Notes under the pieces: generated by a model
Told to the model about the DNA's origin: nothing
Databases searched by the model: none
The model's input: the letters and a program-made list of their open reading frames with translations, nothing else
Translations under genes and position numbers: made by a program
In this document: piece by piece, positions 39,817 to 62,607 of the stretch
Numbering within the stretch: position 1 is the first letter of the stretch
How the letters are laid out: every line of letters begins with the position of its first letter
Source of the DNA: Thalassomonas actiniarum
GTDB lineage: Bacteria > Pseudomonadota > Gammaproteobacteria > Enterobacterales > Alteromonadaceae
Assembly (NCBI RefSeq): GCF_000948975.2
Contig: NZ_CP059735.1
Span: forward strand, 3,286,001 to 3,350,000
Direction of reading: 5' to 3'
DNA: 64,000 nucleotides

Positions 39817-41050
39817 ATAAAGCCAATAAATCTCTCTGATAGCGGGTTTCTAATTCCTGTTGAATATAATCAATACGCTTGCCGTGAGTCAGAAAGGTTA
39901 ATGCGGTCGAGACAAACGAAACATAGTGCTTAAGGGTTTGCTTTTCCTGGGCAAGAAATTTTTTGCAATCTGCTATATTTTGTCCTCCCCGCTGAGGCAC
40001 TTGCGTAACTTCATTGCTGTCATACAGGGCCAGCATTTGCTGGCAAGTTTGCAAAAATGCCTGCAAGGCCAAAATTTCATCAAGCCTGGTACGCGGTTTT
40101 TGGTAACAGGACAACTCTGATTGCAGACACTTTGATGTACTTATTCGTAAAAACATCAGTGCTTTTAAAAAACCTTCCGGCTCACCCGGGCCGATATCTA
40201 TGTCCAGGGCATAGTTTTCTATCTCCATCAAGGCTATCTTTTCTGCTATCAGGGAGTCTGCCACATCCAGAGATACGGTGATCCTGGCGCTGTTAAAGCG
40301 GCTATCATCATGGACAAAGCCATAGCTGGCAAAAAGGCGGCGGTTACTTTTACGGCCGTAACTGACGGTAATCTCTTCACCGGCAGCAATGTTATCCTGA
40401 CTGACCAGCACTAAGGCATTTTTTTCCTTATTTTGCTGCCAAAGGCTATTGGGCCTGGACATGTGATTGGCCATATCGAGCAACGGGCCAAGCACCACTT
40501 CACCATTGAGGGTAAAGCAACGACTGTTGATTACCGTTCGTGCCCACATGTATTGAACAAGGGTCACGTCTTTCATTTCAGGAAGTTCCCTGAGCCGGTG
40601 ATAATCCTGCTCCAGGGTAAAACGCCTCATCAGTATCATTTCAATAACGGGAGAACCCTGTAACTGACAGAGCATGTCGGTGGAATAAAATAACGGGATG
40701 TGGTTAAAGTGTGCCGGCAACATCTCCAGATAAGGCGCCCAAAAGGAGTTTTCCCTGTTGTTTTCTTGCAGCAGATAAGCTGACAGCAAGGCATGCCCCT
40801 CCTTAATCCCGGCTTGCAGCAGTTTTTCTCCGATATCGGATTGTCGGGCTACCCCGCCCCCCATCAAATGGGACTGGGGCAAAGTTAACAATTTCTCCCC
40901 CGCCATTAATGGGTAAGCGGCCACTAGCCGGCGCTCACCATCGGAGGACGTATTAATGACAAGTTTTGTTGTATCTATTCCGGCAGAGCTCAACCAATTG
41001 GACAATTCATGGTCAGCGCCGTATATTACCTGATCTTTGGTTACTAACAT
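39779..41050 (-). CDS. SET-domain protein of the RuBisCO LSMT/SETD3/SETD6 class
   Basis: The 423-aa protein has a split SET domain like plant RuBisCO large-subunit methyltransferase and animal SETD3/SETD6: RTVINSRCF (171-179), DMANHMSRPN (192-201) and GEEITVSYGRKSN (224-236) with the catalytic Tyr in VSYG, then LFASYGFV. A helical C-terminal domain (about 255-420) corresponds to the substrate-binding domain. These enzymes transfer methyl from SAM to Lys (or His73 of actin for SETD3). No Sec signal or linked chaperone is seen. It could act inside the bacterium or, given the nearby type III genes, on a host protein; the latter is speculation. Confidence 0.82.
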   Translation of the reverse strand: MLVTKDQVIYGADHELSNWLSSAGIDTTKLVINTSSDGERRLVAAYPLMAGEKLLTLPQSHLMGGGVARQSDIGEKLLQAGIKEGHALLSAYLLQENNRENSFWAPYLEMLPAHFNHIPLFYSTDMLCQLQGSPVIEMILMRRFTLEQDYHRLRELPEMKDVTLVQYMWARTVINSRCFTLNGEVVLGPLLDMANHMSRPNSLWQQNKEKNALVLVSQDNIAAGEEITVSYGRKSNRRLFASYGFVHDDSRFNSARITVSLDVADSLIAEKIALMEIENYALDIDIGPGEPEGFLKALMFLRISTSKCLQSELSCYQKPRTRLDEILALQAFLQTCQQMLALYDSNEVTQVPQRGGQNIADCKKFLAQEKQTLKHYVSFVSTALTFLTHGKRIDYIQQELETRYQRDLLALFEEEQIDNVSGY

Positions 41051-41464: not shown

Positions 41465-43165
41465 CTATTCTTTACTGGCCTTCTTATCTGCTTTCTCCGG
41501 CTCATTGCTGTTATTGTTACTTGTTGAGTCATTAGCCGGCTGTTTACTGGCCTCTTTATCTACTTTCTCCGGCTCATTGCTACTATTGTTGTTATTGTTG
41601 TTATTGTTGTTATTGTTGCCTATTGAATGATTAGCCGGCTGTTTCGCTAACAGTGTAGCCATAGCATGGTCGTTTTTATTGCTCCCGACCAAATGCTTTA
41701 TAGCGTCACTCGGTTTTTCAAATCCTTCACTTACCCCCTTTGCACGACTATCAAGGATATGCCACTTCTCTGTTTGCTCTGAATAATTTAAGCTATAGGA
41801 GTGTGTATTGGATGAGCGGCCAAGCAACATCCCCGTTACTCCGCTCTCAGCCAACTCATCAGCTTTCGCAGATATATCATCAAGTTGCACTCCCTTCTCT
41901 ACCAATTCTTTTTGCTTATCTGTCATTTTATCTGCAGGCGTTTTTTGCAGCTCTCCAGAAAATATAGCAGTATTCTTCCATGAACTGTCAATCTGACCTT
42001 GGTCGGCTAAAAATTCAAGTAATGCTTTTCCTTGATTATAATCAACCCCTTGTGAAACATTCGGTGGCTTATTATCAACATTATAAGTTTCAGCATCACT
42101 CTTGGTACGGAATCTTGAATTTTTATCACCCATATCTGACTCTAGAAAGGCTTGCGCCACATTAGGGTTTGCCACTTGTTTGCCTATCAAATGATTAATG
42201 GCATGAAGTGTACACATATCATCACTGATATTTTCATGATAAAGACCGGTATTTTCATCTACCCCCACTTTACCGAGATCTTTACTTTCAAATTTAACAG
42301 CTCTTTGTTCGTTACTAAATGCGATCAAAGTGGACTCTGAGTAGTTTTGTTTTTTGAGCCACTTATCATCAACCGGGAGCCATTGTCCACTTTGAGGATC
42401 GGCACGCAATGCCCCATTTTTCTGTTCATTAAGTTTAAGTAACGTTGGTTTAAAAGATTTAAAATCAGCTGACTTTTCATTCTCCTTCAACTCATCCTGA
42501 GCATTATTGCTACCTTTTTTCTCTGCCGGATTGGCGACAACAAAATAATCCCGGTTAGGGTTCATTTTCAGTAGGCCATTTGTCAAAACTTGTGCATCTT
42601 GGGTCCAGTTTTTTGCATCATAGCCAATATCATCTATGTTTGCGGTAGTGTTACGGGATACTGAAGGAGCAGTGCCGCCGCCCATGATCTGGTGGGGGTT
42701 TTTTCCCAGTTCTACTGCCTTATCAAAACCTCTGACAGCACGTGCCATAAAGATACTCTCGGCGCGATTATGCTGTGCAAAGTCATGTTTACTCTTTACA
42801 CTTTTTCTCTTGCCGTGGTCTGGATAAGCTTTTTGCAAGTCATTAAAATACTTATCATCGTTAAGTCGGCTCAGTATGCCCTTTTCTTGTTCACTGGTAG
42901 GGGCGGCTTTTGCTTCCGATTTAGTGCTGCTGGCCTTATCGGCACTTTGTGAAGAATACTCCTTAGAGTTACTTGCAGGGGCACTCATACTGGATATCGC
43001 CCTCTGCTTCCATGGCCCCCTATACTTGTCTTTATTCTCCTTCATATTCTCAATCAATGAGTTCGCGGCCGCCTCACTCATCGGCTTGCTTTTTTTTGCT
43101 TCAAATCTATTTGTCTCAGGGTTTTTAAGCATGAAATTGACTTGGTATTGTGCTACTTGCGCCAT
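41465..43165 (-). CDS. Candidate type III effector with Josephin-like cysteine protease domain
   Basis: The 566-aa protein has a polar, disordered N-terminus (about 1-100) as in type III substrates, a middle domain of unknown fold, and at about 310-495 a segment resembling Josephin deubiquitinases: MCTLHAINHLIG (Cys318, His321, Asn324; ataxin-3 has SLCAQHCLNNLL), then NTHSYSL (His455) and WHILDS (Asp472), giving a plausible Cys-His-Asp triad in the right order and spacing. The tail has an 11-Asn tract and a duplicated KQPAN...NEPEK unit. The gene directly upstream encodes a CesT-type chaperone. Predicted activity: removal of ubiquitin or a like protein in host cells. Any C39- or C1-like peptidase is the alternative. 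Confidence 0.68.
   Translation of the reverse strand: MAQVAQYQVNFMLKNPETNRFEAKKSKPMSEAAANSLIENMKENKDKYRGPWKQRAISSMSAPASNSKEYSSQSADKASSTKSEAKAAPTSEQEKGILSRLNDDKYFNDLQKAYPDHGKRKSVKSKHDFAQHNRAESIFMARAVRGFDKAVELGKNPHQIMGGGTAPSVSRNTTANIDDIGYDAKNWTQDAQVLTNGLLKMNPNRDYFVVANPAEKKGSNNAQDELKENEKSADFKSFKPTLLKLNEQKNGALRADPQSGQWLPVDDKWLKKQNYSESTLIAFSNEQRAVKFESKDLGKVGVDENTGLYHENISDDMCTLHAINHLIGKQVANPNVAQAFLESDMGDKNSRFRTKSDAETYNVDNKPPNVSQGVDYNQGKALLEFLADQGQIDSSWKNTAIFSGELQKTPADKMTDKQKELVEKGVQLDDISAKADELAESGVTGMLLGRSSNTHSYSLNYSEQTEKWHILDSRAKGVSEGFEKPSDAIKHLVGSNKNDHAMATLLAKQPANHSIGNNNNNNNNNNNSSNEPEKVDKEASKQPANDSTSNNNSNEPEKADKKASKE
41585..41617 (-). repeat. AAY trinucleotide tract encoding 11 asparagines
   Basis: A run of Asn codons (AAC/AAT interspersed; read as GTT/ATT on the plus strand) lies in the low-complexity tail of the Josephin-like gene. 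Length changes would stay in frame. Both flanks carry copies of the NEPEK and KQPAN unit. Confidence 0.85.
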
Positions 43166-43224
43166 AATATTTACCTCATTTAAAATTACGTTATTATTTA
43201 GCTTTCTTTTGCCCGAAGATGATT

Positions 43225-43692
43225 TTAAAGTCTCAACATCCCCAGCATGGCATTGCCATCATCTTCTATATTTCCAACAGCTTTATTTACATTGCTCTTC
43301 AATTCCTTCTTTAACTGTTCCGCCTTATCGATAAAGTTATCCAGAATGTTTTTAAAGTCCTGATATTCCCTTTTATCAAAGGTTTCAGTAAAACAAAGAA
43401 ATAGCGCTCCAACGGTTTCATCCAAAGCAATTGCAGCGCCTTTGGTTTCTAATTGATACATGTTTAACGATAAGGCATGGCTTAAGAGCTGCTCACGCTC
43501 CTGATCCGGTAAATCAAGCAGGTGACAAGAAATGGAATAGCCTTCATTTAGTTCATCGGCAAATAAGGCAAAAGAGGTTTTCTTACCAGCCTGTAACATG
43601 CAGCTACCTTCATTGGTTAATGTAAACTGGGTATCAAACTCAGTTCCAAGCTCGTTAAGCCAGTGTTGAAGTTGGTGGTTTTCATATGACAT
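43225..43692 (-). CDS. CesT-type type III secretion chaperone
   Basis: The 155-aa acidic protein has the class I chaperone layout: an N-terminal helix with LQHWLNELG, strands including CMLQAGKKTSFALFADE and GAAIALDETVGALFLCF, and a long C-terminal helix. It lies 59 bp upstream of the Josephin-like gene on the same strand and most likely binds that effector. The region before the ATG contains a clear palindrome (43723-43743). Confidence 0.8.
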   Translation of the reverse strand: MSYENHQLQHWLNELGTEFDTQFTLTNEGSCMLQAGKKTSFALFADELNEGYSISCHLLDLPDQEREQLLSHALSLNMYQLETKGAAIALDETVGALFLCFTETFDKREYQDFKNILDNFIDKAEQLKKELKSNVNKAVGNIEDDGNAMLGMLRL

Positions 43693-44473: not shown

Positions 44474-45463
44474 TTATCTATTACCGAAGATCCCCATCAT
44501 ACTATCAATAACCTCATCATAATCATCAAGCATCTCCTGCGACTCCTGGACAATAGCAGCCATATCCTCCTCAAAAGCGGCGGCAATATCTTCATCCTGA
44601 TAAACAATATCAACCTCGTCATCTTCATTTTGATAAACGATATTGATATCAAGTTCGTCATCTTCCGATGTTTGTACAGCCCCGAACCTGCTCAGATCGA
44701 TCTTCTTGCTGACCAGTTCATCTGTGGTATCAAGTAAGGCATTTAGCCGCTCAATAATGTCCTGATCCATAGGCTCGTTGGGCTTAGTCCCCTGTTCAGA
44801 GATCTTGCGGTTAACCTGATCTTTGAGATTATCAATATTGTCCAGCTGCTGCTCAAGTTTTTCCAGGGTACCGTCATGTAAAGCCAGGGCCCGGTAATCA
44901 TTGCTATCGACGGTGATTTTTTCTAATGCTTCAAGTTTTGAACTGATCAAGGCTGAGCTGACGTTGAGGCGATCCAGGCACTCGGAGTACGTTGTGGCAA
45001 CCTGTTTGCTTTTCGTGCTATCAGGCTCATCCACAAAACTCACCGGAGTATTAGCGAAGCTGACTTTCGTTTCTTGCACTTTCTGCTCTACCGCATCGGG
45101 ATTAATCATACTTTCATAGGCGGCGGTGACCGAATGCAAGGCTTCCATGCTCAGGCTGTTTTTATGGCCGCCCTTATACCAGCTGTCTTCCATTTTCTTA
45201 TTTAATATTGAGAACAGCACGTCTTTTATTTCTTCATTATTAACCCCGGGAAGATCTATCTGATGAATCGCTTCTCTCACCGAACGCAGGGCCAGATCAA
45301 AACTTTCCTTTTTCTCGGCATTTTTCATGGCAAAATACGAGGGCTTTGATTCACCATGTAATTGTACCTGACCAGTGTTCTCGTTTTTGCTGGCACTTAG
45401 GCGAATATCTTTCCCGGGGGCATCGTTAACATGGGTGTTAACATAGCTACATAAACTGTCCAT
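44474..45463 (-). CDS. Candidate type III effector or secreted substrate
   Basis: I do not recognise this 329-aa protein. It has no Sec signal or membrane segment, a polar N-terminus, a helical coiled-coil-like region (about residues 150-235) and a strongly acidic tail with a near-repeat (DINIVYQNEDDEVDIVYQDED, about 280-300) before a final Met-rich DSMMGIFGNR. It lies 21 bp downstream of a small acidic chaperone-like gene on the same strand, the usual layout of an effector pair. The acidic tail could be a chaperone- or host-binding segment. Confidence 0.65.
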   Translation of the reverse strand: MDSLCSYVNTHVNDAPGKDIRLSASKNENTGQVQLHGESKPSYFAMKNAEKKESFDLALRSVREAIHQIDLPGVNNEEIKDVLFSILNKKMEDSWYKGGHKNSLSMEALHSVTAAYESMINPDAVEQKVQETKVSFANTPVSFVDEPDSTKSKQVATTYSECLDRLNVSSALISSKLEALEKITVDSNDYRALALHDGTLEKLEQQLDNIDNLKDQVNRKISEQGTKPNEPMDQDIIERLNALLDTTDELVSKKIDLSRFGAVQTSEDDELDINIVYQNEDDEVDIVYQDEDIAAAFEEDMAAIVQESQEMLDDYDEVIDSMMGIFGNR

Positions 45464-45484
45464 CTCGGCTCCTAAAGTACAGGC

Positions 45485-45964
45485 TTATGCCCGGATCATG
45501 TTTGGGTTCATAAAAGAGATATTGTCCACCAGCTTTTGCTTATCCTGGCTCGTTGCCGTCGGCCAGCTTTTAAGCAGATAGCGCCAGTGGATCATTTGTT
45601 CTGCAAAATTAAAAAAGATCGCAGAAAACTCTAAGGTATTTAACGAGGCCGCACTGTAATCCCCGAGTAATAAACAACTGTCGCCACTGCCGCTTAAGGC
45701 AGTTTTTACCGACCTTTGCTCCTGGCCCAGGGCATTAAAGGTCAGGAAAAACTTATACAGCTCCAGCTGGTCTTGCTTTTCTATGGCCCCGGCTTCGCCG
45801 CTAAGGGTAAAACTGTCATCTTGCTGATGGTAATAAACCCAAACCAGTTCGCTGTCGCCGTATTCAATGAGCCAATAGCCATTTTCAAACTGCACCACCG
45901 AACTCGCCTTGAGCACTTCACCTATGTCTGCCATCAATAATTTGAATTTATCTAGCGGTTCCAT
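45485..45964 (-). CDS. CesT-like type III secretion chaperone
   Basis: The 159-aa protein is small, acidic and alpha/beta, with a strand-rich centre (GYWLIEYGDSELVWVYY, DSFTLSGEAG) and helical ends, as in class I chaperones. The match to CesT is by pattern, not clear identity. Its neighbour is the 329-aa candidate substrate, 21 bp downstream. It precedes the translocon operon's last gene by about 95 bp in map position and is transcribed in the same direction. Confidence 0.68.
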   Translation of the reverse strand: MEPLDKFKLLMADIGEVLKASSVVQFENGYWLIEYGDSELVWVYYHQQDDSFTLSGEAGAIEKQDQLELYKFFLTFNALGQEQRSVKTALSGSGDSCLLLGDYSAASLNTLEFSAIFFNFAEQMIHWRYLLKSWPTATSQDKQKLVDNISFMNPNMIRA

Positions 45965-46060
45965 ATTTACCCTGCATTCTTTTCAATAAGCGTTAAAGAA
46001 TCGACAAAACAGACTCAGGTGGGTTGCCCCACCTTTGTCACATTTCCAAACCAATCGCAA

Positions 46061-47044
46061 TTACACGCGGCTGCCGACGATTTCACTGTTGGTCTGGTGT
46101 CTGGCATCGTTGATGGCCTTGATCATATTCATGGCATCGTTGATGATCTGTTTTGAATCTCTGAAGTACTGATTTTGATCTTCAGATTTGGAGCGGTACA
46201 AGCCAGACTCGGTTTCCGCCCTTTGCTGCTCTTCCTGATCTTCGGTAGACACAAAGGTAATGGTTGAACCGGTTGTTCCGGCAGCGCCTTCGAGGATCTT
46301 ACCGGCAGCGGTATATTTCGCCGTCGTTGCCTGTGCCTGTGCTTCGGTCATTTTCGGACCGGCTTTACTGGCGTTACTTGTAGTGCTGCTCGCCGTTGAC
46401 GCCGTGGTAGAACCTTCACTCATGCCTTCGGCCAAACCGTTGGAAGTTTTCACCGTACCGCCGGAAGTATTGCCGGTGGTATTGGTGGGCGTAGGCGCTT
46501 TAGGCGCCGCTGCTGCACCGGTAGACGGTGTGCTTAAGCCTTTCAGGGTTTTAATACCGCCGGCCATTGAAAGTGCGCCACTGACAATAGTCACGGCGTT
46601 GGTGATCATACCCACCATAAAGTCTTTGGCGGCTTTATCACGCATGGCTGAAATGGCTTCTTCACTTTTTACCACCATCATCTGGCGGTCGCCGTTACGC
46701 ATTTCCCGGTTGACATCCCTTTGCTCACGTACAGTTTCCAGGAATAACTTCATGATTTCATTAAAATCCGCCATAAAATCACGACCAACTACCCTGTCTT
46801 GTGATTCATCGCTGCCGGCTTCCAGTTTAGGCGGTGTCAGTTGCGGCACATCATGGATAGTAATAGTGCCCTTGTCGGTTTTTACCACCAGATCGTCATC
46901 CACTAACTGGATATTCTGGACGGTACCGATATCCTTTCCCTGGATACCGTTGGTGGTGCCGCTGCCGTCTGCTGCGGTAAAAGTCACCTGGTAGTCGCTA
47001 TTTAAATAATCTGTTACTTGTGCATTGGGTGTTACTGTGGCCAT
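46061..47044 (-). CDS. SctB-like type III translocator (SseD/EspB/YopD-like)
   Basis: The 327-aa protein has one hydrophobic region (about residues 142-172, MVGMITNAVTIVSGALSMAGG) flanked by a helical DFNEIMKLFLETVREQRDVNREMRNGD segment that is common in minor translocators, and a final coiled-coil-like helix (IINDAMNMIKAINDARHQ). The linker is rich in Thr, Ser and Ala. Translocators of this class form the host-membrane pore with the SctE/SseC partner. It lies 44 bp after the SseC-like gene, as sseC-sseD do in SPI-2. Confidence 0.78.
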   Translation of the reverse strand: MATVTPNAQVTDYLNSDYQVTFTAADGSGTTNGIQGKDIGTVQNIQLVDDDLVVKTDKGTITIHDVPQLTPPKLEAGSDESQDRVVGRDFMADFNEIMKLFLETVREQRDVNREMRNGDRQMMVVKSEEAISAMRDKAAKDFMVGMITNAVTIVSGALSMAGGIKTLKGLSTPSTGAAAAPKAPTPTNTTGNTSGGTVKTSNGLAEGMSEGSTTASTASSTTSNASKAGPKMTEAQAQATTAKYTAAGKILEGAAGTTGSTITFVSTEDQEEQQRAETESGLYRSKSEDQNQYFRDSKQIINDAMNMIKAINDARHQTNSEIVGSRV

Positions 47045-47088
47045 AATTTCTTCCTTAATATTTTGTAAAAGTGTTAAATCAACAGGGA

Positions 47089-48111
47089 TTAAACCGCTGT
47101 GTTGTTCATGATGGTGCTGCTAAGCTCGGTACTGGCGGTCAGGGTTTCCATGGCAATTTTGATCCCCTGGGCATATTGCTGCATGATTTCTTCCAGCTTG
47201 TCCTGGTAATCACCCAGTTTCATCATCAGCTCATTGATAAACATTTGTTGCTCGGCAGCATCGGCGCGGGCATCAGCCGCTTCTTTGGTATAAGCCGTAG
47301 TCGCAAGACCGGCTCCGCCCTGACCTACGGTTGCCGCGCCACCGACTACGCCACTGATAGCAGCCACTTTAGCCGCCATAATGGCTAGCGTGCCTGTTGC
47401 CGCAGGGCCCATCATGGCCGCACCACCGGAGGCAAGTGAAAGCACCATAACCGTCGCCAATACAGTGATTTGCGCCGCCATCATGGCGTCTTCTTTGGAC
47501 ATATCGGGGTCAATTGCCATAAAGACTTCCGCCAGGCCCTCATTCATCCAGTCGCCGGTTTCCCCCGAGATTTGCGAGGTCAGCATCACGGCGCCAGCCG
47601 CTATCATCAAGGTACCGGCAACGGCGCCGACACCGGTGGCGATTAACGCTGCCCCGGCCACTATCATGGCGGCACTGGCAATCCAACCAAACACCTTGCC
47701 GATACCGCTGCTTTCTTTGGCTTTTTCTATCGCCTTGAGAGCATCTTCAATTTTTTTGATGCGCTCGTCATGGTGCTGCTGCGTGGTCAGCTGGTTGTTT
47801 TTAATATTTTCCTTGGCATTAACCGCCTGCTCTTCGGTCACCTCCTGGTTCAATGAAGTCAGCATAAGCATAAGGTCATTCATGCTCATGTCTCCCAGCT
47901 GAGGGGCGGCCAGCTTGACCGCATTGGCAATGGCCTCGGCATCGCTTTGGGCCGTGCCCTGGCCATCGGTCAATATGGTGACAATTTGCTGACCCAGGGC
48001 CGAGCCGGGGGAAATATTGGTATTATCCGCATTGCTATTGTTTACATTGATATTGCCCATATTGGTGTTGTTTTGCGGCGTCGTTGGCTTATTTACCGTT
48101 ACATCGCTCAT
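47089..48111 (-). CDS. SctE-like type III major translocator (SseC/EspD/YopB-like)
   Basis: The 340-aa protein has an Asn-rich disordered N-terminus, a coiled-coil helix (about 90-130) and two strongly hydrophobic segments (about 137-182 and 216-262) of the kind that insert as a hairpin into host membranes. The first includes GKVFGWIASAAMIVAGAALIATG, typical of SseC/YopB proteins. The C-terminus is amphipathic. It sits directly downstream of its probable class II chaperone gene. Confidence 0.85.
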   Translation of the reverse strand: MSDVTVNKPTTPQNNTNMGNINVNNSNADNTNISPGSALGQQIVTILTDGQGTAQSDAEAIANAVKLAAPQLGDMSMNDLMLMLTSLNQEVTEEQAVNAKENIKNNQLTTQQHHDERIKKIEDALKAIEKAKESSGIGKVFGWIASAAMIVAGAALIATGVGAVAGTLMIAAGAVMLTSQISGETGDWMNEGLAEVFMAIDPDMSKEDAMMAAQITVLATVMVLSLASGGAAMMGPAATGTLAIMAAKVAAISGVVGGAATVGQGGAGLATTAYTKEAADARADAAEQQMFINELMMKLGDYQDKLEEIMQQYAQGIKIAMETLTASTELSSTIMNNTAV

Positions 48112-48123
48112 ACTCTCTGCTCC

Positions 48124-48612
48124 TTAAGATAATTTATTTTTCACAAGTGCCAGCATCTTGGTGGCCTTGTCTTTTACTTCTTCATAGCCGCCCTGGTTGC
48201 CGGCAAATTCCAGCGCCGCACTAAAGCCGCTGGCAGCATTTTCAAAATCTCCCAGTGCCAGGTAGCATTCGGCGGCATGCAGTGGCGGCAGCGGGTTGCT
48301 GATATCCAACAGGGCCGCCATAGAATAGGAGTTGATGGCATCTTTATATTGCTGCAGCATTTGCTGGCAGCCGCCGATACCCATAAGATATTTCTTTTCC
48401 AGGTGGTCGTATAATCCCAGGAATTTAAAGACCTTAAGCGCGTCTTCATATTTGGCATTCTGATAAAGGTTGTAGGCCACGTAATAGATGGCTTCCATGG
48501 TTTTTTCATCGACATTTTTCAGCTCGCGTAAAGCACCGCCTTTACCGATAAAGTCAAATACTTGCTCACCTAATGCCAGAGTGTGGTCTATTTTTTCTTG
48601 TGTAAAATTCAT
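48124..48612 (-). CDS. SycD/LcrH-type TPR chaperone for translocators
   Basis: The 162-aa protein consists of three TPR-like repeats (EAIYYVAYNLYQNAKYEDALKVF, KKYLMGIGGCQQMLQQYKDAINSY, PLPPLHAAECYLALGDFENAASGF), the structure of class II type III chaperones. These hold the hydrophobic translocators in the cytoplasm. ATG 48612 has AGGAG upstream; an in-frame GTG at 48633 is less likely. It is 12 bp before the SseC-like gene, as expected for its cargo. Confidence 0.9.
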   Translation of the reverse strand: MNFTQEKIDHTLALGEQVFDFIGKGGALRELKNVDEKTMEAIYYVAYNLYQNAKYEDALKVFKFLGLYDHLEKKYLMGIGGCQQMLQQYKDAINSYSMAALLDISNPLPPLHAAECYLALGDFENAASGFSAALEFAGNQGGYEEVKDKATKMLALVKNKLS

Positions 48613-48749
48613 GATGACTCCTGCTGTTGTCACTTGCTGTCTGTTGAGTCTCAGGCCCCGGGCTATTCCATCAGTTGGTAATAGCCCGACAAAGGTGCCT
48701 GATAAAAATAAAGGTGCACAAATACCGCTGAAAAATTGTGCACTTAAGG

Positions 48750-49241
48750 TTAAATACGGGTATTGCCGATAATGGAGTCTTTTTCCCCGTGAGAAGTACT
48801 TAAGAAGTTGGTTTGCTGTTTGATCACTTCATCGTACTTGTTCATAATCGCCTGCAGGTCAATCAGATCCGTTTGCGAAGTACTGGTTAAGCTGTCGATT
48901 TCGGTTTGCATATTTTCAATCACCGCCGTCCACTCATCCTTGCTGTATTTGTTATCATTATCGTCATTAGGCACATCAACGTTGTTGGCCTTGATAAAGG
49001 CAGTGAACTCCGGAGACATCTCGGTAGTTTTTCCCTTAGCCTGTTCGCTGCGCCCTTCCTGCAAAAAAGTATTGAACTCTTTTAACAGGGCATTTTTATC
49101 GGCGATCATTTTTGCCTGCTCGCGGATCTGATCATCGAGAATCTCTGAACGTCCACTTAATGCTTTCATCATTACCGTTTCCAGAGACAACTTGTGCTCT
49201 ACAGTCCCCAGGGTATTCGTGCTATTGACTGGATTAGCCAT
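48750..49241 (-). CDS. Type III filament protein (EspA/SseB-like), short paralogue
   Basis: The 163-aa protein is helical with a long C-terminal coiled coil (about residues 105-155: TEIDSLTSTSQTDLIDLQAI then MNKYDEVIKQQTNFLS) ending SIIGNTRI, the layout of EspA/SseB filament subunits that extend the needle toward the host. The N-terminal region LETVMMKALSGRSEILDDQIREQA and the C-terminal 45 residues closely match the 421-aa protein encoded two genes upstream, so the two are paralogues. Family naming is by architecture and operon position before the SycD and SseC genes. Confidence 0.8.
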   Translation of the reverse strand: MANPVNSTNTLGTVEHKLSLETVMMKALSGRSEILDDQIREQAKMIADKNALLKEFNTFLQEGRSEQAKGKTTEMSPEFTAFIKANNVDVPNDDNDNKYSKDEWTAVIENMQTEIDSLTSTSQTDLIDLQAIMNKYDEVIKQQTNFLSTSHGEKDSIIGNTRI

Positions 49242-49326
49242 AATTAATTTCCTTTTCTTTTCCGCTTAACGCTGTCATGGTTAAGCGGTTTATTAATGAA
49301 TCTTGATGTATTTAGGTCTCAAATCA

Positions 49327-49632
49327 TTAGATAAAAGCACGGTGCCTGGCTTTTTTCGCCGCACGCACCGGCATATCCCGGTACTTGGCCCGGTCGCGGG
49401 CATCGCGCTGGGCCTGGGCAATTTCATCCCGAAAAGCCTCCGATTTTTTCTCTAATTGTTCCTTTTCATGGGCCGTTAACTCTGAAGTGTCCGACAACAT
49501 CGCCTTGGTAATACCATAGCGTTGATACAGATCTTCTTTTTGTTTCAGCAGCCCTCGGGCTTGTGCCAGGGTGTCTTTACTTTCCTTAAGAAAAGCTTCC
49601 AGTGCGGTTTGTTTGGACATTTCATTCGCCAT
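49327..49632 (-). CDS. Small coiled-coil protein, putative filament chaperone
   Basis: The 101-aa protein is nearly all helix, with heptad-like leucines and a basic C-terminus (RAAKKARHRAFI). It is encoded between the two filament paralogues. SPI-2 SseA and EPEC CesA/CesAB are about 100-aa coiled-coil chaperones for filament subunits encoded in the same place, so that role is the most likely inference. I cannot see direct sequence identity with them. Confidence 0.65.
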   Translation of the reverse strand: MANEMSKQTALEAFLKESKDTLAQARGLLKQKEDLYQRYGITKAMLSDTSELTAHEKEQLEKKSEAFRDEIAQAQRDARDRAKYRDMPVRAAKKARHRAFI

Positions 49633-49668
49633 GATTTTTTCCTTTATAAATACGTTTTAGCTCAAGGA

Positions 49669-50934
49669 TTAGATACGGGTGTTGCCGATAATAGAGTCGT
49701 TTTCACCGTGTGCCGTACTCAGCATGTTGGTTTGTTGCTTGACGTTTTCATCGTATTTATTCATTAACGATTGCAAGGCAATCAACTCGGTTTGCGAGCG
49801 GCTGGTGAGGCTGTCAACATAATCAGAAGACATTTGCGCCAGGTTTTCTTTCTCTGCCGGGGTAAAGACCAGGGCACTACCGTATTGCAAGGTTGAAATA
49901 TCGGCTCCCATTTCTTCTAATAAAGCAATATTCTCCGGAGTTGCTTCTATGGTGAATAAGCTTTCCATCGCCGTTTTTACCGAAGCCATTTCGGTAGAGG
50001 TTAATACCAGTGCGCCGCCTTCGGTATAATCCGCCGGATCAAGGCCTGCCTTGGTTAACATTTCCTTATTTTTATCCGTCAGCGGCAGCGTAGTAATTTC
50101 TTCGGTAACTTCGGTTTGCGCCACTTTTATACCGCCGGAAATATCGTCGCCGTTAAGGGCGGCCCAGTCGCTCATATCGCCATTGTTGGTGACAAAAATG
50201 GTGCCGTCATTTTTAGTGGCATCATCAAATAAGCTGCCGTCGCTGGCGACGTCCAAAAAGTCATTGCCCTGGCCGCCGCCGTTGGCGTTATCACTTAAAC
50301 CGGTAACTACCGCCTGATCATCGCCGCGGGAAATATAAAGGTTATCCGTTACCGTAGCGCCACTGTTGCCATAAGGAGCGGTTTCAACGGTGATCTTGAC
50401 GCCTGTTGGGGTAATAAAAGTTGATTGCTCGTTAAAATCGAAGTCGACGGAATCGTCGTCGCCTTCATCAACATGCGGGTCACCCCAAACACGGGTTGAA
50501 TTGGTAAAGGTAGGATCGGCCCCTTCAGCTCTTTGCTCCGCCGGATCATACTCAACCATTTTCCAGGAGCGGTTGTCGCCGGATCTTTCAATAACCACAC
50601 CGGTACCGTCGCCAAAATCGATAAAGTCATCGCCGTTGCTTAATTTCGAAGTGGTGAAATCCGGGTAGTCGGCATCGGAAAAGTCATCCATCTCGCCGAC
50701 GGTTAAACCCGCGTTATTGGCGCCGATATTGGTCAACTGGGACATTTTATTAGCAGCAACAATTTGTTGGTTGGCCGCTTCAATGCTGGCCGCTTGTTCA
50801 CGAACACCGTCATCAAGGATAGTATCGCGCTCACCCAATACCCGCATCACTAATGATATCGTGGCTTCACGGCTCATATGTGCACTGCTTGTTGCTTCTG
50901 TTCCTACGCCACCTGCTACTGGTTGATTCTGCAT
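49669..50934 (-). CDS. Type III filament-like protein with internal MIIA (DUF1521) autocleavage domain
   Basis: The 421-aa protein has EspA/SseB-like ends nearly matching the 163-aa paralogue (N-terminal ERDTILDDGVREQA; C-terminal SRSQTELIALQSLMNKYDEN to SIIGNTRI). Between them, about residues 95-265, lies a DUF1521 domain: TRVWGDPHVDEGDDD with the cleavage motif GDPHVD (scissile Asp152-Pro153), FDFNEQSTFITPTGVKITV, NLYISRGDDQAVVTGL. In Bradyrhizobium NopE1 and in a Vibrio coralliilyticus protein this domain cuts itself between Asp and Pro when Ca2+ or similar ions bind. A 100-residue linker rich in acidic residues follows. The start chosen has GGAG seven bases upstream of ATG 50934; two in-frame ATGs lie just before it. 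Confidence 0.85.
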   Translation of the reverse strand: MQNQPVAGGVGTEATSSAHMSREATISLVMRVLGERDTILDDGVREQAASIEAANQQIVAANKMSQLTNIGANNAGLTVGEMDDFSDADYPDFTTSKLSNGDDFIDFGDGTGVVIERSGDNRSWKMVEYDPAEQRAEGADPTFTNSTRVWGDPHVDEGDDDSVDFDFNEQSTFITPTGVKITVETAPYGNSGATVTDNLYISRGDDQAVVTGLSDNANGGGQGNDFLDVASDGSLFDDATKNDGTIFVTNNGDMSDWAALNGDDISGGIKVAQTEVTEEITTLPLTDKNKEMLTKAGLDPADYTEGGALVLTSTEMASVKTAMESLFTIEATPENIALLEEMGADISTLQYGSALVFTPAEKENLAQMSSDYVDSLTSRSQTELIALQSLMNKYDENVKQQTNMLSTAHGENDSIIGNTRI

Positions 50935-51343
50935 ATCCATTCTCCATTTCATTTTTTAAAAAGTTTGCCCGATGCCTTCTCATCAGGCGGTCATAAACTT
51001 TGTAACCAATAAAAAAAAATGGTTGTAAACTTCTTGCGATTTTTATCTTAAAAAAAGCAGTAAATGATGGCTGTATTGGCAATAAATACGTAAACAAACA
51101 TAAATAAGACTATATAAATCACTGATTTTTAATCAAAATATCAAAGTGGAATTTTGTTATTAATGAAAGGAAATAAAATTTAAGATTTTCGCTATTTATG
51201 TCGATTAAACGGCAAGACTTTTACCTTCAGGCAGATAAAACGTCACTTTGCGATGATTTTATCTACACTTGTCTGCGGAGATATTTTCAATATTCAGCAA
51301 GCATTCTCTGTTACTACCGGTCTGCTTGAAAAAGGGGGCTGGC
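50935..51343. other. AT-rich divergent promoter region
   Basis: The region separates the filament/translocon operon (minus) from the DUF3179 gene (plus). It is strongly AT-rich (especially 51000-51180), with a short interrupted hairpin GCCCGATG/CATCAGGC near 50967-50988 and A-runs near 51008. It probably carries the main promoter of the translocon operon, but I cannot point to a specific box. Confidence 0.5.
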
Positions 51344-52381
51344 ATGATGCAAAAATTATTTGCTCGCTGGTATGCAAAACTGTCATCCAGGCAGGTACTG
51401 CCGCTTATTCCACTCACTTTAGCCGCGGTTTTTCTGCTGGCAGATGTCTTCATCTCCATCCAGGGGGCGATACCCGGTTTTGGCTCCGCCAGCAACGGTT
51501 TCGATTTAAGCCAAACCTCTGTGCCTAGCAAGCAGATACATCATGGCGGTCCACCCCGTGACGGTATCCCTGCCCTGAGCCATCCTAAGTTTATCGCTGC
51601 CGATAAAGCCGGTTTTCTGCTGCCTCAATCTCGAATATTGGGCGTGAGTGTTGCCGGTCGGGCAAAAGCCTATCCCATTGCCATTTTAAACCACCATGAA
51701 ATTGTTAACGACACACTGGCAGGAAAAGATATTGCCGTAACCTTCTGCCCTTTATGCGGCACCGGCATAGTCTATAACGCCAGAGTTGACGGGCAATTGC
51801 TGGAATTTGGCGTTTCCGGCTTGCTTTATAACAGCGATGTTTTGCTTTATGACAGGCAAAGTGAGTCTCTGTGGTCGCAGATCCTCTCCCAAGCTATCAG
51901 CGGCCCTATGAAAGATAAAACACTCACCCGTCTGCCAGCCCTGCATACCAGTTGGCAGCACTGGCAAAAATTGCACCCCCATACCCGGGTTTTATCGCAA
52001 CACACCGGCTATAGCCGCAACTATCAACAAACCCCCTATGCCGGTTATAACCAGTCTGAAGCCATTTATTTTCCTGTGGCCCATCGCGATAAGCGTTATC
52101 ACAGTAAAGAAGTGGTGCTGACAGTGGAAATAAACGGCAAGGCCAAGGCCTATCCGTTTAAGGAGCTGGCGTTATATCAGAAACAAACCGGTCGCAGTAA
52201 AATAACGGATTCCCTGGCCGGACACACAGTCGTGGTAGAATTTGACCTGGCTTCACGCTCTGGCCGTATCACCGGAGTTTCTGGCAAAGAAATTCCCGGC
52301 TTTCAGGCATTTTGGTTTGCCTGGATCGCCTTTCATCCCGATTCCGAAGTCTTTACCGTAAAGCAGGCAAAACAAGGCTAG
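51344..52381 (+). CDS. DUF3179 domain-containing protein
   Basis: The 345-aa protein has a membrane-anchor or uncleaved signal segment (about residues 19-36, VLPLIPLTLAAVFLLADVF) and a DUF3179 body: FCPLCGTGIVYNARVDGQLLEFGVSGLLYNSDVLLYDRQSESLW with the conserved CPLC pair and SLW motif, and a second half with IEINGKAKAYPF-like repeats. Function is not established. AAGGGGG precedes the ATG. It ends 4 bp from the convergent lipoyl gene. Confidence 0.86.
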   Translation: MMQKLFARWYAKLSSRQVLPLIPLTLAAVFLLADVFISIQGAIPGFGSASNGFDLSQTSVPSKQIHHGGPPRDGIPALSHPKFIAADKAGFLLPQSRILGVSVAGRAKAYPIAILNHHEIVNDTLAGKDIAVTFCPLCGTGIVYNARVDGQLLEFGVSGLLYNSDVLLYDRQSESLWSQILSQAISGPMKDKTLTRLPALHTSWQHWQKLHPHTRVLSQHTGYSRNYQQTPYAGYNQSEAIYFPVAHRDKRYHSKEVVLTVEINGKAKAYPFKELALYQKQTGRSKITDSLAGHTVVVEFDLASRSGRITGVSGKEIPGFQAFWFAWIAFHPDSEVFTVKQAKQG

Positions 52382-52385
52382 CGGA

Positions 52386-53108
52386 TCAGCCCAGTAAAAC
52401 AGCCGTGACCAATACGCCAAGCACAAGGCCGATAATACCAAAAAGTAAACTGCCGGGAGCAAACACGCCTTTGCCGGTGCTTTCTTGTGTATTAACTACA
52501 GGATTGGCTTCACCTTTCATAGCGGCAACTTGCTGTGTCTGCCCGGCAGGTTCAGGGGGCGTTTCGAACATTTGTGGCGTTAACTGCATCACCACTTGCT
52601 CTGAGTTCACCCAGTGACCTTGTGCAATAGTAAAGTCACTGACAATGCCACTCGTTTCGGCTACCACTTCAAGTATTACCTTATCGGTTTCAACATCAAA
52701 TAAACCCTGGTCCCTTTGCACCTGCTGCCCGGGAGTAACATGAATTGTCGATATTACGCCATCAGCCACTGATTCAGGCAATATCGGCACGATCACATCC
52801 AGGGGATCGGTATTTTCCCTTTGTTCAAGATAAACGCTATTTTTTGCTTCAACAGGCACCTCACCATCACGTTGCGGCCTTATTTTCATAACCACTTGCC
52901 TGGAAGTGACACTATCATCTTTGCTGATGTTAAACTCATCGATAATACCAGTGACATCAGCAACCACTTCAAGTACCACCTTGTCAGTTTCAACATCAAA
53001 TAAATGATCGCCAACCTTAACCTGCTGGCCCTGATTAACATAAATATCTGCGATCTCAGCCTGGGGAACGGCTTCTGGCAAATGTGGAATGACAACGTCG
53101 GTGTGCAC
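52386..53108 (-). CDS. Tandem lipoyl-domain protein with C-terminal membrane anchor
   Basis: The 240-aa protein (from GTG 53108 with AAGGA upstream) contains two lipoyl/biotinyl domains exactly 100 residues apart, each with FDVETDKV and the modifiable lysine (Lys43 and Lys143). A Gln/Pro-rich linker and one C-terminal membrane helix (about 214-238) follow. Pyruvate- and 2-oxoglutarate-dehydrogenase E2 proteins carry such domains, but the E1-binding and acyltransferase domains are absent. An in-frame ATG at 53210 would add 34 residues with no similarity and no ribosome site. Role unknown; it could be a membrane-tethered swinging arm or membrane-fusion-like protein. Confidence 0.8.
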   Translation of the reverse strand: MHTDVVIPHLPEAVPQAEIADIYVNQGQQVKVGDHLFDVETDKVVLEVVADVTGIIDEFNISKDDSVTSRQVVMKIRPQRDGEVPVEAKNSVYLEQRENTDPLDVIVPILPESVADGVISTIHVTPGQQVQRDQGLFDVETDKVILEVVAETSGIVSDFTIAQGHWVNSEQVVMQLTPQMFETPPEPAGQTQQVAAMKGEANPVVNTQESTGKGVFAPGSLLFGIIGLVLGVLVTAVLLG

Positions 53109-53337
53109 GAAATTTCCTTGAGTAAAATGCGCAGTAATTTCGCACATTTTTTGGTACTGGAATGGATAACGGGACAATAATCGAATTCCCACGGCAATAC
53201 AAGCTTTCATCTGTGATGATTAAACAAGGTTGAAATTAAGGCCTGGGGGGCGTTGAGGTTTATCTCATCAGGAGAGCAGCAAAAACAGTAGATAAGGCGC
53301 AGACACGCACGGATAATCAAAAACACACAGTTAATTA

Positions 53338-53369
53338 GCCGCAGCCGACAGGCATTCTCCGGCTGCGGC
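53338..53369 (-). terminator. GC-rich hairpin after the transglutaminase-like effector gene
   Basis: GCCGCAGCCG (53338-53347) pairs with CGGCTGCGGC (53360-53369). It lies about 45 bases beyond the stop codon and is followed on the minus strand by TAATTAAC, without a long T-run. Confidence 0.55.
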
Positions 53370-53413
53370 AGGCACAAGCTTGCCGCATGATCCGGTTACA
53401 TTCCAATAAAGCG

Positions 53414-55063
53414 TTACTGTTCAGGATCTTCGGTTAAAAACTCTATGCTTTGATCGTCCAGCTTAGTGCGGACAAGGGTAAGCAGCTCATCTTTTTGGGG
53501 GCCCTGATCCGCTAACAAGTCACCGTCAATAAAGGCATAAGCGAGCATATTGCGTAAACCGTCAGCATCGTCGGCATTAATAAGCGCATGTATTTCATGA
53601 CGGTAATCGGCAAAACTCAAGCCCCCCCAGTCTGATCTCACACTCATATTGCTGTCTTCCGACAAACGGGAGGACTGCCTTGGTAGGATAACATCATCAC
53701 CGACAAACTCGTCCCCATGATCAGCATCCTGACTTGCTATACTGGCATCATCTGCACTGACGTCATCGGCAAGTCGCGGATCCTGGTTTAAAATTTCGAC
53801 ACTTGGATCGGCCAGCTCGCTCCGGATACGGGTGAGCAGTTCAAGTTTTTGGCTTTCCTGATCGGATGTCAGCAGTTCATCGGTATAATATTCATTTTCC
53901 ACCAAGTCGCGTAATTGCTCGGTTTGGCCCGCATTGATCAAGGCATGGGCTTCATGGCGGTAATCGGCAAAACTCAAACCGCCCCAGTCGGATCTGTCAC
54001 TCATATCACTGTCTTCAGACAATAGCGAAGGTTGCCTCAGGACAACATCATCACCAACGATCAACTCGTGATCCATGACATGTTGTGCCAACTGGTTGAC
54101 ATCATGCTTGGCATTGGCAGCCTCTTCAACTTTAGCTGCATTGTCTGTGTAGACACCACTGGTATGCAGCAGGGCATAAAGCGGCTGACTCATCTTTGAG
54201 AAAGTCGAAGTTTCCTGGGTACTTTCGTTAATATACAAGACAGGAGCATCGTCTTCGCGAAAATGCGCGACATCATACATGTGTCCCGATGTTGCGACCA
54301 TCTTCAGGCAATGGCGCTCATAACCGCCGTCAAATTGGGAAAAGTCCTGAAAATGCTGGGCACCTGAATATAATCCCTTTGCCGTTTCTGTTCGTAGCAT
54401 ATGGTCTATTGCCGGATCACCATCAGGATTCGGATCCCGCTGATCAAGTACCCTGTAATTTTGAGCATCCAATGACTTAACCAAAGTACTATACGGCATT
54501 AAGTGTACACTCGGCTCTGAGCCGTATGAATCATAAATGGCGCACATACCATACTTATCGGGTCCTTCAACGGTAAACGCATGGTTGATGTCCGGATTCT
54601 CCGGGTCTTCCCAGCCAAAACGCTGCAATTGCAGATCATGCCCTTCTGCGGCGCGATAGAGGAATACCAGGGAGCTGATATTGCCGCAGGTGCCGCCGCC
54701 GGTCCGCAAGGATCCGATGGCCTGCCCCTCGGTGGAAAGTTTCGAGCTAATGCCGTACTCTTTGGCATTTGCGGCCTCATAGGCCTTACCGTCAGACATG
54801 GTAAACAAGAAATTGCTGAAACCGCCGGACTTCATAATATCATCGGTGCGGTTGCCGACCAGGGGCACTATGGTTCTGGAGTACATATTGGCCCTCTCCC
54901 CCCGGGCCATGCCTTTAAACAGTTCGTCTGAAACTTTCTGGGTTTTCACGTCATGGCCGTCATAATTCTTTTGCTTGGCCACTTCTATGGTATCTGTGCC
55001 CTTTCCCTGGCCGGTAATAGCCGAAGGAGGCGTATTTAATATACTACGGTTGATAACATCCAT
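53414..55063 (-). CDS. Candidate type III effector, transglutaminase/cysteine-protease-like, duplicated C-terminus
   Basis: The 549-aa protein has a polar N-terminus, then a domain whose order of motifs suggests a papain/transglutaminase-like Cys-His-Asp triad: GGGTCGNISSLVFLYRA (Cys126), DINHAFTVEG (His161) and MCAIYDSYG (Asp178). This resembles the HopX/AvrPphE-type effector core, although the family match is by motif only. The last 215 residues contain two copies of a ~95-aa unit (336-430 and 454-549; shared SDWGGLSFADYRHE). A CesT-type chaperone gene lies 11 bp upstream. Expected to act in the host cell on an unknown protein. Confidence 0.68.
   Translation of the reverse strand: MDVINRSILNTPPSAITGQGKGTDTIEVAKQKNYDGHDVKTQKVSDELFKGMARGERANMYSRTIVPLVGNRTDDIMKSGGFSNFLFTMSDGKAYEAANAKEYGISSKLSTEGQAIGSLRTGGGTCGNISSLVFLYRAAEGHDLQLQRFGWEDPENPDINHAFTVEGPDKYGMCAIYDSYGSEPSVHLMPYSTLVKSLDAQNYRVLDQRDPNPDGDPAIDHMLRTETAKGLYSGAQHFQDFSQFDGGYERHCLKMVATSGHMYDVAHFREDDAPVLYINESTQETSTFSKMSQPLYALLHTSGVYTDNAAKVEEAANAKHDVNQLAQHVMDHELIVGDDVVLRQPSLLSEDSDMSDRSDWGGLSFADYRHEAHALINAGQTEQLRDLVENEYYTDELLTSDQESQKLELLTRIRSELADPSVEILNQDPRLADDVSADDASIASQDADHGDEFVGDDVILPRQSSRLSEDSNMSVRSDWGGLSFADYRHEIHALINADDADGLRNMLAYAFIDGDLLADQGPQKDELLTLVRTKLDDQSIEFLTEDPEQ
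53417..54058 (-). repeat. Two-copy in-frame duplication in the effector C-terminus
   Basis: Units of about 95 codons (54058-53774 and 53704-53417) encode related segments sharing VGDDV, RLSED/LLSED, SDWGGLSFADYRHE and HALINA. The copies have diverged, so the duplication is not recent. Confidence 0.8.
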
Positions 55064-55074
55064 GAGCTGCCTCC

Positions 55075-55530
55075 TTACACTAAAATCGCATGGGAAGACA
55101 GAGGTTGTTCCTCACCCGGCAAGGGTTGTGCTTCGTTGTCGTTTAACAGGGTATGCCAGAGCAGGCTATGATCCAGTAAGTTGTCAAAAGCCTGCTGTAG
55201 CCGGCTAAGCTCAAGTCCCTCACTTTCAAGACAAAAACTTAACGCCACCGCCTTTTTCTTCGGACAGATGCCTAAGCTGGCACCGGCTAATTCATCCTGG
55301 TTATGGTTGGCCAGCAGCAGGGTTTCATAAAGCTCAATGCGATTTTCCTCTTTAATCGGCGCTAAATAAGCAATCAGGTGACAGCGCTCCTCCTGATTTA
55401 GAATATTAATCTGCACCTTATTGTCTATCACCAAAGCAAAACCTTTATCATCGACATCGGCACTGTTCTCATAGCCGAGCTGTTTGGCAAATAGTTTAAT
55501 AATTTCCAGTTGCGCTTGATTTACCTGCAT
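55075..55530 (-). CDS. CesT-type type III secretion chaperone
   Basis: The 151-aa acidic protein has the class I chaperone pattern: helix QLEIIKLFAKQLGYENS, a strand with GFALVIDNKVQINIL, a helix ELYETLLLANHNQDELAGASLG and a strand VALSFCLESEGL, then a long C-terminal helix. It lies 11 bp upstream of the transglutaminase-like effector gene and most likely serves it. An 8-bp inverted repeat TTACTTAC/GTAAGTAA (55532-55539, 55568-55575) flanks the region just before its start. Confidence 0.85.
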   Translation of the reverse strand: MQVNQAQLEIIKLFAKQLGYENSADVDDKGFALVIDNKVQINILNQEERCHLIAYLAPIKEENRIELYETLLLANHNQDELAGASLGICPKKKAVALSFCLESEGLELSRLQQAFDNLLDHSLLWHTLLNDNEAQPLPGEEQPLSSHAILV

Positions 55531-62385: not shown

Positions 62386-62607
62386 CTACATTTTCTGGAT
62401 AACGCCACTGACGGCGTCACTTAAGGATTTCATGGTGGTACTGGCCAAACTGGTGGCATTGCCCCATTCACCAATGGCTTGCTGGAATTTAAGCAAGTTA
62501 CCGGTGTCGGTGAGATCCAACTCAGATGTCTCCCTGACCTTGGCATCTTTTTCTTCAAACAATTTTCCCATGCTGTTGGTGATGGCTTCGGTATTAAAGG
62601 TGCTCAT
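62386..62607 (-). CDS. sctF: SctF, type III secretion needle protein
   Basis: The 73-aa protein has the needle-subunit size and shape: two helices around a DTGNLLKFQQAIGEWGNATSL region that corresponds to the conserved PxxP turn area, and a C-terminal helix with SDAVSGVIQKM. The hydrophobic C-terminus is used to pack the needle. It lies between the chaperone genes sctE-like and sctG, as in Ysc-, SPI-2- and LEE-type systems. Confidence 0.9.
   Translation of the reverse strand: MSTFNTEAITNSMGKLFEEKDAKVRETSELDLTDTGNLLKFQQAIGEWGNATSLASTTMKSLSDAVSGVIQKM

Follow-up and report, generated by a model that had tools for sequence, protein, structure and literature searches.

Proteins carrying the metal ion-inducible autocleavage (MIIA) domain, DUF1521, are the closest described relatives of the system considered here. 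The available part of PMC6506597 presents NopE1 and NopE2 of Bradyrhizobium, which undergo DUF1521 autocleavage and are secreted by the type III route, and VIC_001052 of Vibrio coralliilyticus, the product of a type III secretion system (T3SS) cluster with published calcium-induced folding and cleavage. According to the same part of that source, the MIIA domain of VIC_001052 has little ordered structure until calcium is present; it takes up two Ca2+ ions with a dissociation constant (Kd) <=3.6 uM, is cleaved at 100 uM Ca2+, and is cut at the motif GDPH with Ca2+ or Mn2+ but not with Mg2+, its calcium site being modelled only (PMC6506597). Two further systems work in a similar manner as far as the available parts of their sources go: flagellinolysins, likened by function, are minor filament subunits that bear a catalytic domain in their surface region and accompany a plain subunit, although they belong to the flagellum and are zinc proteases acting on other proteins (PMC7643111), and the self-processing module of FrpC, likened by description, makes a calcium-triggered Asp-Pro cut in an exported protein, although FrpC is a repeats-in-toxin (RTX) protein and forms an anhydride and an isopeptide link (PMC7078468). 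Here, we describe a gene of Thalassomonas actiniarum located in a stretch of 64,000 nucleotides, hereafter the window (positions 3286001-3350000 of contig 1 of a 7.49 Mb genome), whose product is supported as a filament-type T3SS subunit with an embedded MIIA domain and an intact cleavage motif. This embedded architecture differs from that of the published MIIA protein.

The frame is open over 49669..50952 of the minus strand, with in-frame ATG codons at 50952, 50940 and 50934, and gives 421 residues when started at the last of them, whereas the plus-strand reading of 49669-50934 contains many stops; the coordinates 49669..50934 given in a preliminary description, made from the letters of the stretch, are right. 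The hidden Markov model (HMM) of DUF1521, PF07481, matches residues 145-265 (E 2.2e-17, 64.0 bits against a cut-off of 23.6), and the GDPHVD motif reported there occupies residues 151-156. To call the domain complete was slightly generous, the match covering profile positions 38-153 of 169; strands are predicted over residues 94-259. This is the single place where DUF1521 was found in the genome, and a tblastn search of plasmids returned no match. On both sides of the domain the protein resembles a 163-aa paralogue of the same operon (long and short subunit hereafter). Its last 49 residues are 78% identical to those of the paralogue (E 5e-23), and residues 27-55 show 45% identity over 29 residues with the paralogue's start (E 4e-5); thus ends described as almost identical are close at the C-terminus and only clearly alike at the N-terminus. 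A small alpha/beta module is present in two copies in the long protein (a duplication judged by eye) and in one copy in the short.

The putative EspA/SseB-type nature of both subunits rests on operon order, fold and weak HMM matches in relatives rather than on an HMM of their own. EspA and SseB have, to our knowledge, no inserted enzyme-like domain, and share with the window subunits the operon position and two long helices. At the window locus the gene order chaperone-filament-SycD-SctE-SctB is present; the model of the short paralogue shows two long helices in the manner of EspA, whose filament is also its best Foldseek match (rank 1, prob 1.00, E 2.9e-3), and the model of the long protein resembles flagellin-type proteins in a fold search. 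SseB (NF052422) matches 2 of 11 short proteins, at best at 0.028, and LcrV gives weak matches in 3 of 11, the best at 0.005. For G968, a genome of Photobacterium's family, SseB matches the short protein at 1e-4 over nearly the whole model and the long protein at 1.3e-3, and the small upstream protein gives a weak match to the filament chaperone CesA (0.015) among other coiled-coil matches; all SseB matches are below cut-off. Several results weigh against the assignment: the EspA/SseB HMM search with the long and short proteins of the window gave no match, EspA is not among the matches listed (25 of 41 Pfam families) for 11 short proteins, no Foldseek match of the short model falls below 0.001, the mycobacterial coiled-coil protein 5y06 at rank 4 also has prob 1.00, and unrelated coiled coils reach the same Z, so that the fold match is not specific. 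A PDB search with the long protein alone returned one row at chance level.

The architecture recurs. A scan of the named collection matched 156 stretches and gave 132 relatives, of which the best 80 were analysed, open reading frames (ORFs) running off the locus end or shorter than 100 aa being excluded before counting. Filament ends were found in 11 of these best 80 of 132, namely in Algicola sagamiensis, Thalassomonas sp. RHCl1, three Photobacterium, Sulfidibacter corallicola, gammaproteobacterium 45_16_T64 and four systems divided between Acanthopleuribacter pedis (two) and a metagenome-assembled genome (MAG) of Holophagae (two); Acanthopleuribacter and Sulfidibacter belong to Acidobacteriota. 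The remaining loci among the best 80 had no filament-profile match at <=1e-3, two standing at 0.33 and 0.59. With the window itself, Thalassomonas G013 and G776, and G846 and G968 of Photobacterium's family, 16 long/short pairs are obtained. These bacteria are probably marine. A closed ORF with the DUF1521 motif is present in 78 of the best 80 loci (all but L041 and L051), and the filament profile matches 20 of 92 loci with such an ORF, corresponding to 15 different genes; the sixteenth long gene, from G968, is too divergent for this profile. Since the latter escapes the profile and yet weakly matches SseB, the domain is flanked by filament ends in two lineages that differ very strongly from each other. 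All four Thalassomonas genomes examined have DUF1521, each with a long/short pair, and one of the four, G775, has its locus in common with Thalassomonas sp. RHCl1. In wider samples the domain occurs in 3/59 genomes of the family sample, 1/394 of the order sample and 5/398 of the phylum sample (own genome counted in each). In the family of G777, DUF1521 is present in 7/329 genomes and the filament family in 5/329, both together, as judged by these models, in G777, G778 and G846, while G786 and G1109 have plain filament subunits only, with no DUF1521 match. Using phmmer with the window proteins on 13 long-enough loci of relatives (two of 3.4 kb were too short for the count), SycD was detected downstream in 13/13, SseC in 12/13 and SctB in 10/13; by eye, the long and short genes of G968 are separated by about 5.5 kb, the long one being the farther along and adjoining a second SycD-like gene. 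The DUF1521 match and genus-wide presence of the pair rule out that the gene is not real, the 16 systems rule out a single odd fusion, and G786 and G1109 rule out that the domain goes with every such filament. G1109 also encodes four tandem plain filament paralogues (C27:24939-27490; L112, L117, L118, L122). Ten myxobacterial loci (L026, L036, L053, L054, L058, L061, L063, L071, L073, L092), which lack filament ends, have a DUF1521 ORF about 4-7 kb from a SctU-like ORF recognised by eye from its NPDH motif; DUF1521 may go with T3SS there too.

VIC_001052, as identified here, does not share this architecture. Locus L097/L106 of G920 was identified here as VIC_001052 by ten features found in the available part of PMC6506597 (length 370, D116, W172, W223, D178, D180, D184, E186, E189 and 42 acidic residues in 73-243), with one misfit, the 21 basic residues of that source against 12 Lys+Arg (15 with His) counted. 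It has DUF1521 with GDPH in a T3SS cluster, as the long protein does, and its gene stands between SctD-like and regulator-like genes (by eye), but neither filament profile nor SseB matches it, and the candidate view that VIC_001052 already has this architecture was rejected since its ends are not matched by these profiles. In the phylum sample the nearest DUF1521 matches are in four ORFs, NopE-like by resemblance only, three of them with two DUF1521 matches; unlike the long protein, none is matched by the filament profiles.

If both subunits enter one filament, their ends should be alike within a lineage rather than within a paralogue group, and this is largely what sequence comparison suggests. 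The last 50 residues of each long protein are 45-96% identical to those of its own short partner, against means of 22-51% with long proteins of other groups. When a tree is built from both ends, long and short proteins mix by lineage; it requires at least five changes, and the hypothesis that the long proteins form one clade is rejected (C ends, p 5.8e-8; both ends, p 1.6e-5). For the DUF1521 parts of the 16 long proteins one clade is not rejected (p 0.27), the best tree, a quick one, needing three changes; ORFs without a GDPH-type motif (L007, L011, L102 and L103 among them) were left out of it, and short paralogues were left out of the structure alignment because MAFFT misplaced their N ends in another alignment. 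Recent duplication as an explanation of like ends is ruled out in 13 of 16 pairs by synonymous divergence (dS) between partners, which over the last 50 codons exceeds 1.1 or is saturated. The long and short proteins of G968 keep 85% protein identity in C ends at a proportion of synonymous differences (pS) of 0.91, and 76% in N ends at pS 0.78. The likeness of ends is best explained by selection for compatibility, acting via one lattice or one chaperone. A number of observations temper this conclusion. The tree of both ends carries long-branch warnings, long/short labels are more clustered than in most shuffles (5/500 as low; 137/500 for C ends), and long proteins group together within Thalassomonas, Photobacterium and some Acidobacteriota. 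For Acanthopleuribacter system 2 and Holophagae MAG system 2, the two long proteins show 83% likeness to each other and only 45-48% to their own short partners, the Algicola long protein is equally close (70%) to the Photobacterium long proteins and to its own short one, and the long end of G846 is identical to that of Photobacterium. In three Acidobacteriota pairs dS is 0.44-0.71, hence recent duplication or conversion is possible, and repeated insertion of the domain could also produce grouping by lineage.

The history of the domain itself differs from that of the ends. Between window positions 45571-53400 and Thalassomonas sp. RHCl1, identity in 90-base steps is 89-100% outside the long gene with three exceptions, two steps at the alignment end (62 and 46%) and one intergenic step (77%). 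Within the long gene residues ~79-318 stand at 75-89%, including six consecutive steps at 75-82%, and the ends at 94-100%. The corresponding dS is 0.053 for the N helix, 1.04 for DUF1521 and 0.026 for the C helix, with a domain ratio of non-synonymous to synonymous divergence (dN/dS) of ~0.11. The domain tree places the window with G013 and G776 and leaves RHCl1 outside, whereas in the tree of ends the window and RHCl1 coincide. Since the DUF1521 segment alone is divergent between two close Thalassomonas, it was exchanged as a cassette by recombination, the ends being kept. Conserved cores with variable central regions are the rule in flagellins, as stated in the available part of PMC7643111.

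Judged somewhat probable is the interpretation that these bacteria build a mixed filament with an optional, exchangeable, outward-facing MIIA domain that folds and nicks itself in calcium-rich water. The gene product would be a second filament subunit of a Ysc-type T3SS, polymerising through its N- and C-terminal helices in the EspA/SseB manner and joining the same filament as the short plain paralogue, with the MIIA domain presumably facing outward, much as flagellins display domains within their variable region. At the low calcium level of the bacterial interior the acidic domain would be unfolded, by analogy with VIC_001052, and could pass the export channel; in seawater it would bind calcium, fold and cut its own chain between Asp152 and Pro153, as the intact motif suggests. 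Since seawater contains ~10 mM calcium, compared to the Kd <=3.6 uM and the cut at 100 uM for VIC_001052, the protein would encounter its trigger on exit from the bacterium and not upon entry into a host cell. The predicted end helices 22-75 and 359-420 flank the cut and are expected to stay paired as in flagellin-type proteins, therefore the nick need not break the filament, and because the long protein has no cysteine, only the pairing of helices and the beta sheet would keep its halves together. Both halves would most likely be retained, and the cut may mature or loosen the displayed domain rather than break the filament, this being the least certain step. GDPH and W223 (VIC_001052 numbering) are kept in 16/16 long proteins, and domain dN/dS is ~0.06-0.11 among the four Thalassomonas. 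Against this interpretation it must be said that the 16 long proteins do not retain the complete modelled calcium site of VIC_001052 (D178, D180, D184, E186, E189), so that calcium dependence may differ; two aligned NopE-like proteins do not retain it in full either, single positions are acidic in some filament proteins, and the site, being a modelled one, is not a firm feature of the family. Acidobacteriota long proteins (L018, L019, L020, L068, L086) have by eye an EF-hand-like loop (DxDGDGxx or similar) in the module preceding the C helix, absent from their short partners, a possible second calcium site.

Alternatively, a single copy of the long protein could cap each filament or needle, like LcrV or IpaD, with calcium-driven nicking at the tip as a gate for translocon assembly. 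LcrV and IpaD likewise have a domain between two coiled-coil helices, the long gene is first in the window operon, whose order fits lcrG-lcrV-lcrH-yopB-yopD too, the apparatus is Ysc-like with SctX, SctY, SycN and TyeA matches (SycN below cut-off), and LcrV is weakly matched by 3/11 short proteins (best 0.005). Nevertheless we regard a tip or cap role as unlikely, since the fold matches of the short protein are EspA filaments, the filament/tip position is already taken by this partner, and the retained likeness of the long protein's ends to those of the short one points to the same lattice. Somewhat less likely still is a secreted effector whose filament ends serve as export and chaperone-binding signals only and whose halves act elsewhere after release, as for NopE. 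The MIIA proteins NopE1 and NopE2 are indeed secreted (available part of PMC6506597), and EspA-type subunits bind the chaperone through their ends, so that likeness of ends could reflect a shared chaperone; however, both ends are kept and not an N-terminal signal alone, C ends of G968 remain 85% identical at pS 0.91, and VIC_001052, an MIIA protein from a T3SS cluster, is without such ends.

The idea advanced in the preliminary description, that a calcium-triggered cut breaks or shortens the filament, releases its tip or frees the C-terminal helix, is not supported and looks improbable: the cut site does lie between the two end helices and no cysteine would hold the halves, but flagellin-type matches of the model suggest that they stay together, the trigger would always be on in seawater, and GDPH-cleaved von Willebrand factor D (VWD) domains are stabilised by cleavage, according to the available part of PMC10880436. 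We give slightly less credit to an ordinary variable surface domain (adhesin, immune or phage decoy) with slow or absent cleavage, which the resemblance of cassette exchange to surface-antigen variation and the incomplete conservation of VIC_001052's modelled calcium site would favour, while GDPH intact in 16/16 proteins, including four Thalassomonas, and the low domain dN/dS speak against it. Equally faint is the likelihood of a covalent joint, in which the Asp152-Pro153 cut, made when the domain meets calcium outside the cell, would proceed via a reactive anhydride of Asp whose released end would bond to a neighbouring subunit or to amino or hydroxyl groups of the host surface or mucus, welding the injection filament to itself or to its target; the plain subunit would then dilute the reactive one, and strains would exchange a reactive cassette. 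Linking by Asp anhydride is described for the FrpC module (PMC7078468) and NeissLock (PMC7846742), as far as the available parts of both sources show.

The likeness of DUF1521 to VWD domains is a lead only, drawn from profiles and models. A profile of 66 sequences matched FCGBP, a protein rich in VWD domains, at 3.5e-13, a value that adds up weak repeats of which the best single one stands at 0.11. A second construct was matched at 9.4e-4, GDPH aligning on GDPH and the downstream DF on DF. An aromatic-Asp-Phe follows GDPH 7-10 residues on in most long proteins (WMF or FEF in 3/16), compared to a spacing of 8 in FCGBP. In the available part of PMC10880436, Asp or His mutation in the VWD GDPH abolishes cleavage, the cleaved domain is more protease-resistant, and the disulfide holding the first strand is absent from some VWD domains too. 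Disulfides of this kind are not possible in the cysteine-free long protein, and VWD domains such as those of FCGBP and mucins belong to animal extracellular proteins. The weak structural matches disagree in register: VWF aligns from model residue 88 but mucin D3 from residue 143, and of the two the latter alone would place GDPH at the VWD start, which weighs against a VWD-like fold. Among the papers listed, the one naming NopE1 has no mention of von Willebrand factor in its available part, and calcium is not named in the available part of the one VWD paper searched.

Among the papers listed on DUF1521, metal ion-inducible autocleavage and VIC_001052 (titles and abstract starts, with few subscription journals), none names a filament subunit with the domain. 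We know of no other type III filament with a self-processing, calcium-switched domain; this one, if true, would be the first known to us. It would also offer a setting in which the role of the MIIA domain, so far unclear, can be tested directly. Two subunits, one of them with an exchangeable outer domain, are a design parallel to that of enzymatic flagellins, which would show that injectisome filaments can act as functional surfaces and not only as pipes, and long/short pairing in distantly related bacteria suggests that the syringe rods can carry a chemically active coat. If the VWD link holds, bacterial MIIA would be tied to GDPH cleavage in mucins, whose purpose is also unknown by the available part of PMC10880436.

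Coordinates of the features are collected in Table 1. The transcription order is long subunit, 101-aa helical protein, short subunit, SycD/LcrH, SseC and SctB; the same order is found in sseA-sseB-sscA-sseC-sseD and, equally, in lcrG-lcrV-lcrH-yopB-yopD. Genes at 59-64 kb match SctD, F, I, J and L, and genes outside the window match SctC, V, X, Y, W, N, Q, R, S, T, U, SycN and TyeA (SctF and SycN below cut-off). The apparatus is a Ysc-like set with its own SctF-like needle gene, hence the filament proteins are probably not the needle.

Table 1. Features of the long gene and its T3SS neighbourhood in the window.
Feature	Coordinates	Strand	Basis
Long subunit, filament ends and inserted DUF1521/MIIA domain, 421 aa	49669..50934	-	ORF call, Pfam, paralogue match
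Predicted N-terminal long helix, residues 22-75 (27-55 match short paralogue)	50710..50871	-	secondary structure, paralogue comparison
DUF1521/MIIA beta domain, residues 94-262 (Pfam match 145-265 = 50140-50502)	50149..50655	-	Pfam, secondary structure
GDPH motif, residues 151-154, predicted cut Asp152/Pro153	50473..50484	-	sequence
Segment divergent from Thalassomonas sp. RHCl1 (75-89% nt; sides 94-100%), exchanged cassette	49981..50700	-	90-base identity steps
Two copies of small alpha/beta module, residues 283-326 and 328-371	49822..50088	-	by eye and secondary structure
Predicted C-terminal long helix, residues 359-420	49675..49860	-	secondary structure, paralogue comparison
101-aa helical protein between both subunits, probable filament chaperone (SseA/CesAB position)	49327..49632	-	Btc22 chaperone match E 0.012, below cut-off
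Short paralogue, plain filament subunit, 163 aa	48750..49241	-	ORF call, paralogue match, fold
SycD/LcrH/SscA translocator chaperone	48124..48633	-	TIGR02552 2.4e-43
SseC/SctE-type translocator	47089..48111	-	PF04888 1.3e-18
SctB/SseD-type translocator	46061..47044	-	NF038055 1.8e-7, below cut-off
Separate needle subunit, SctF-like	62386..62607	-	TIGR02105 5.7e-5, below cut-off; adjoins YscE-family and CdsG matches

Small ORFs like that of the 101-aa protein are present in relatives too. These small proteins share a basic C-terminal stretch, frequently R-x-F-I or RMRI, although those of the relatives are only 15-26% identical to that of the window, and their profile searched against PDB gave designed proteins and other coiled coils as best rows. 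Three large proteins without Pfam match (41465-43692, 44474-45964 and 53414-55530, minus strand) each adjoin a CesT-type chaperone and are likely effector-chaperone pairs; one of them, of 566 aa, has a Cys, His, Asp pattern that looks cysteine-protease-like by eye. A SET-domain protein (PF00856, 7.4e-9) at 39779-41050 of the minus strand adjoins this effector region. In the T3SS cluster two consecutive genes for extracytoplasmic function (ECF) sigma factors stand between SctC and SctV (L107:3683-4992, minus strand).
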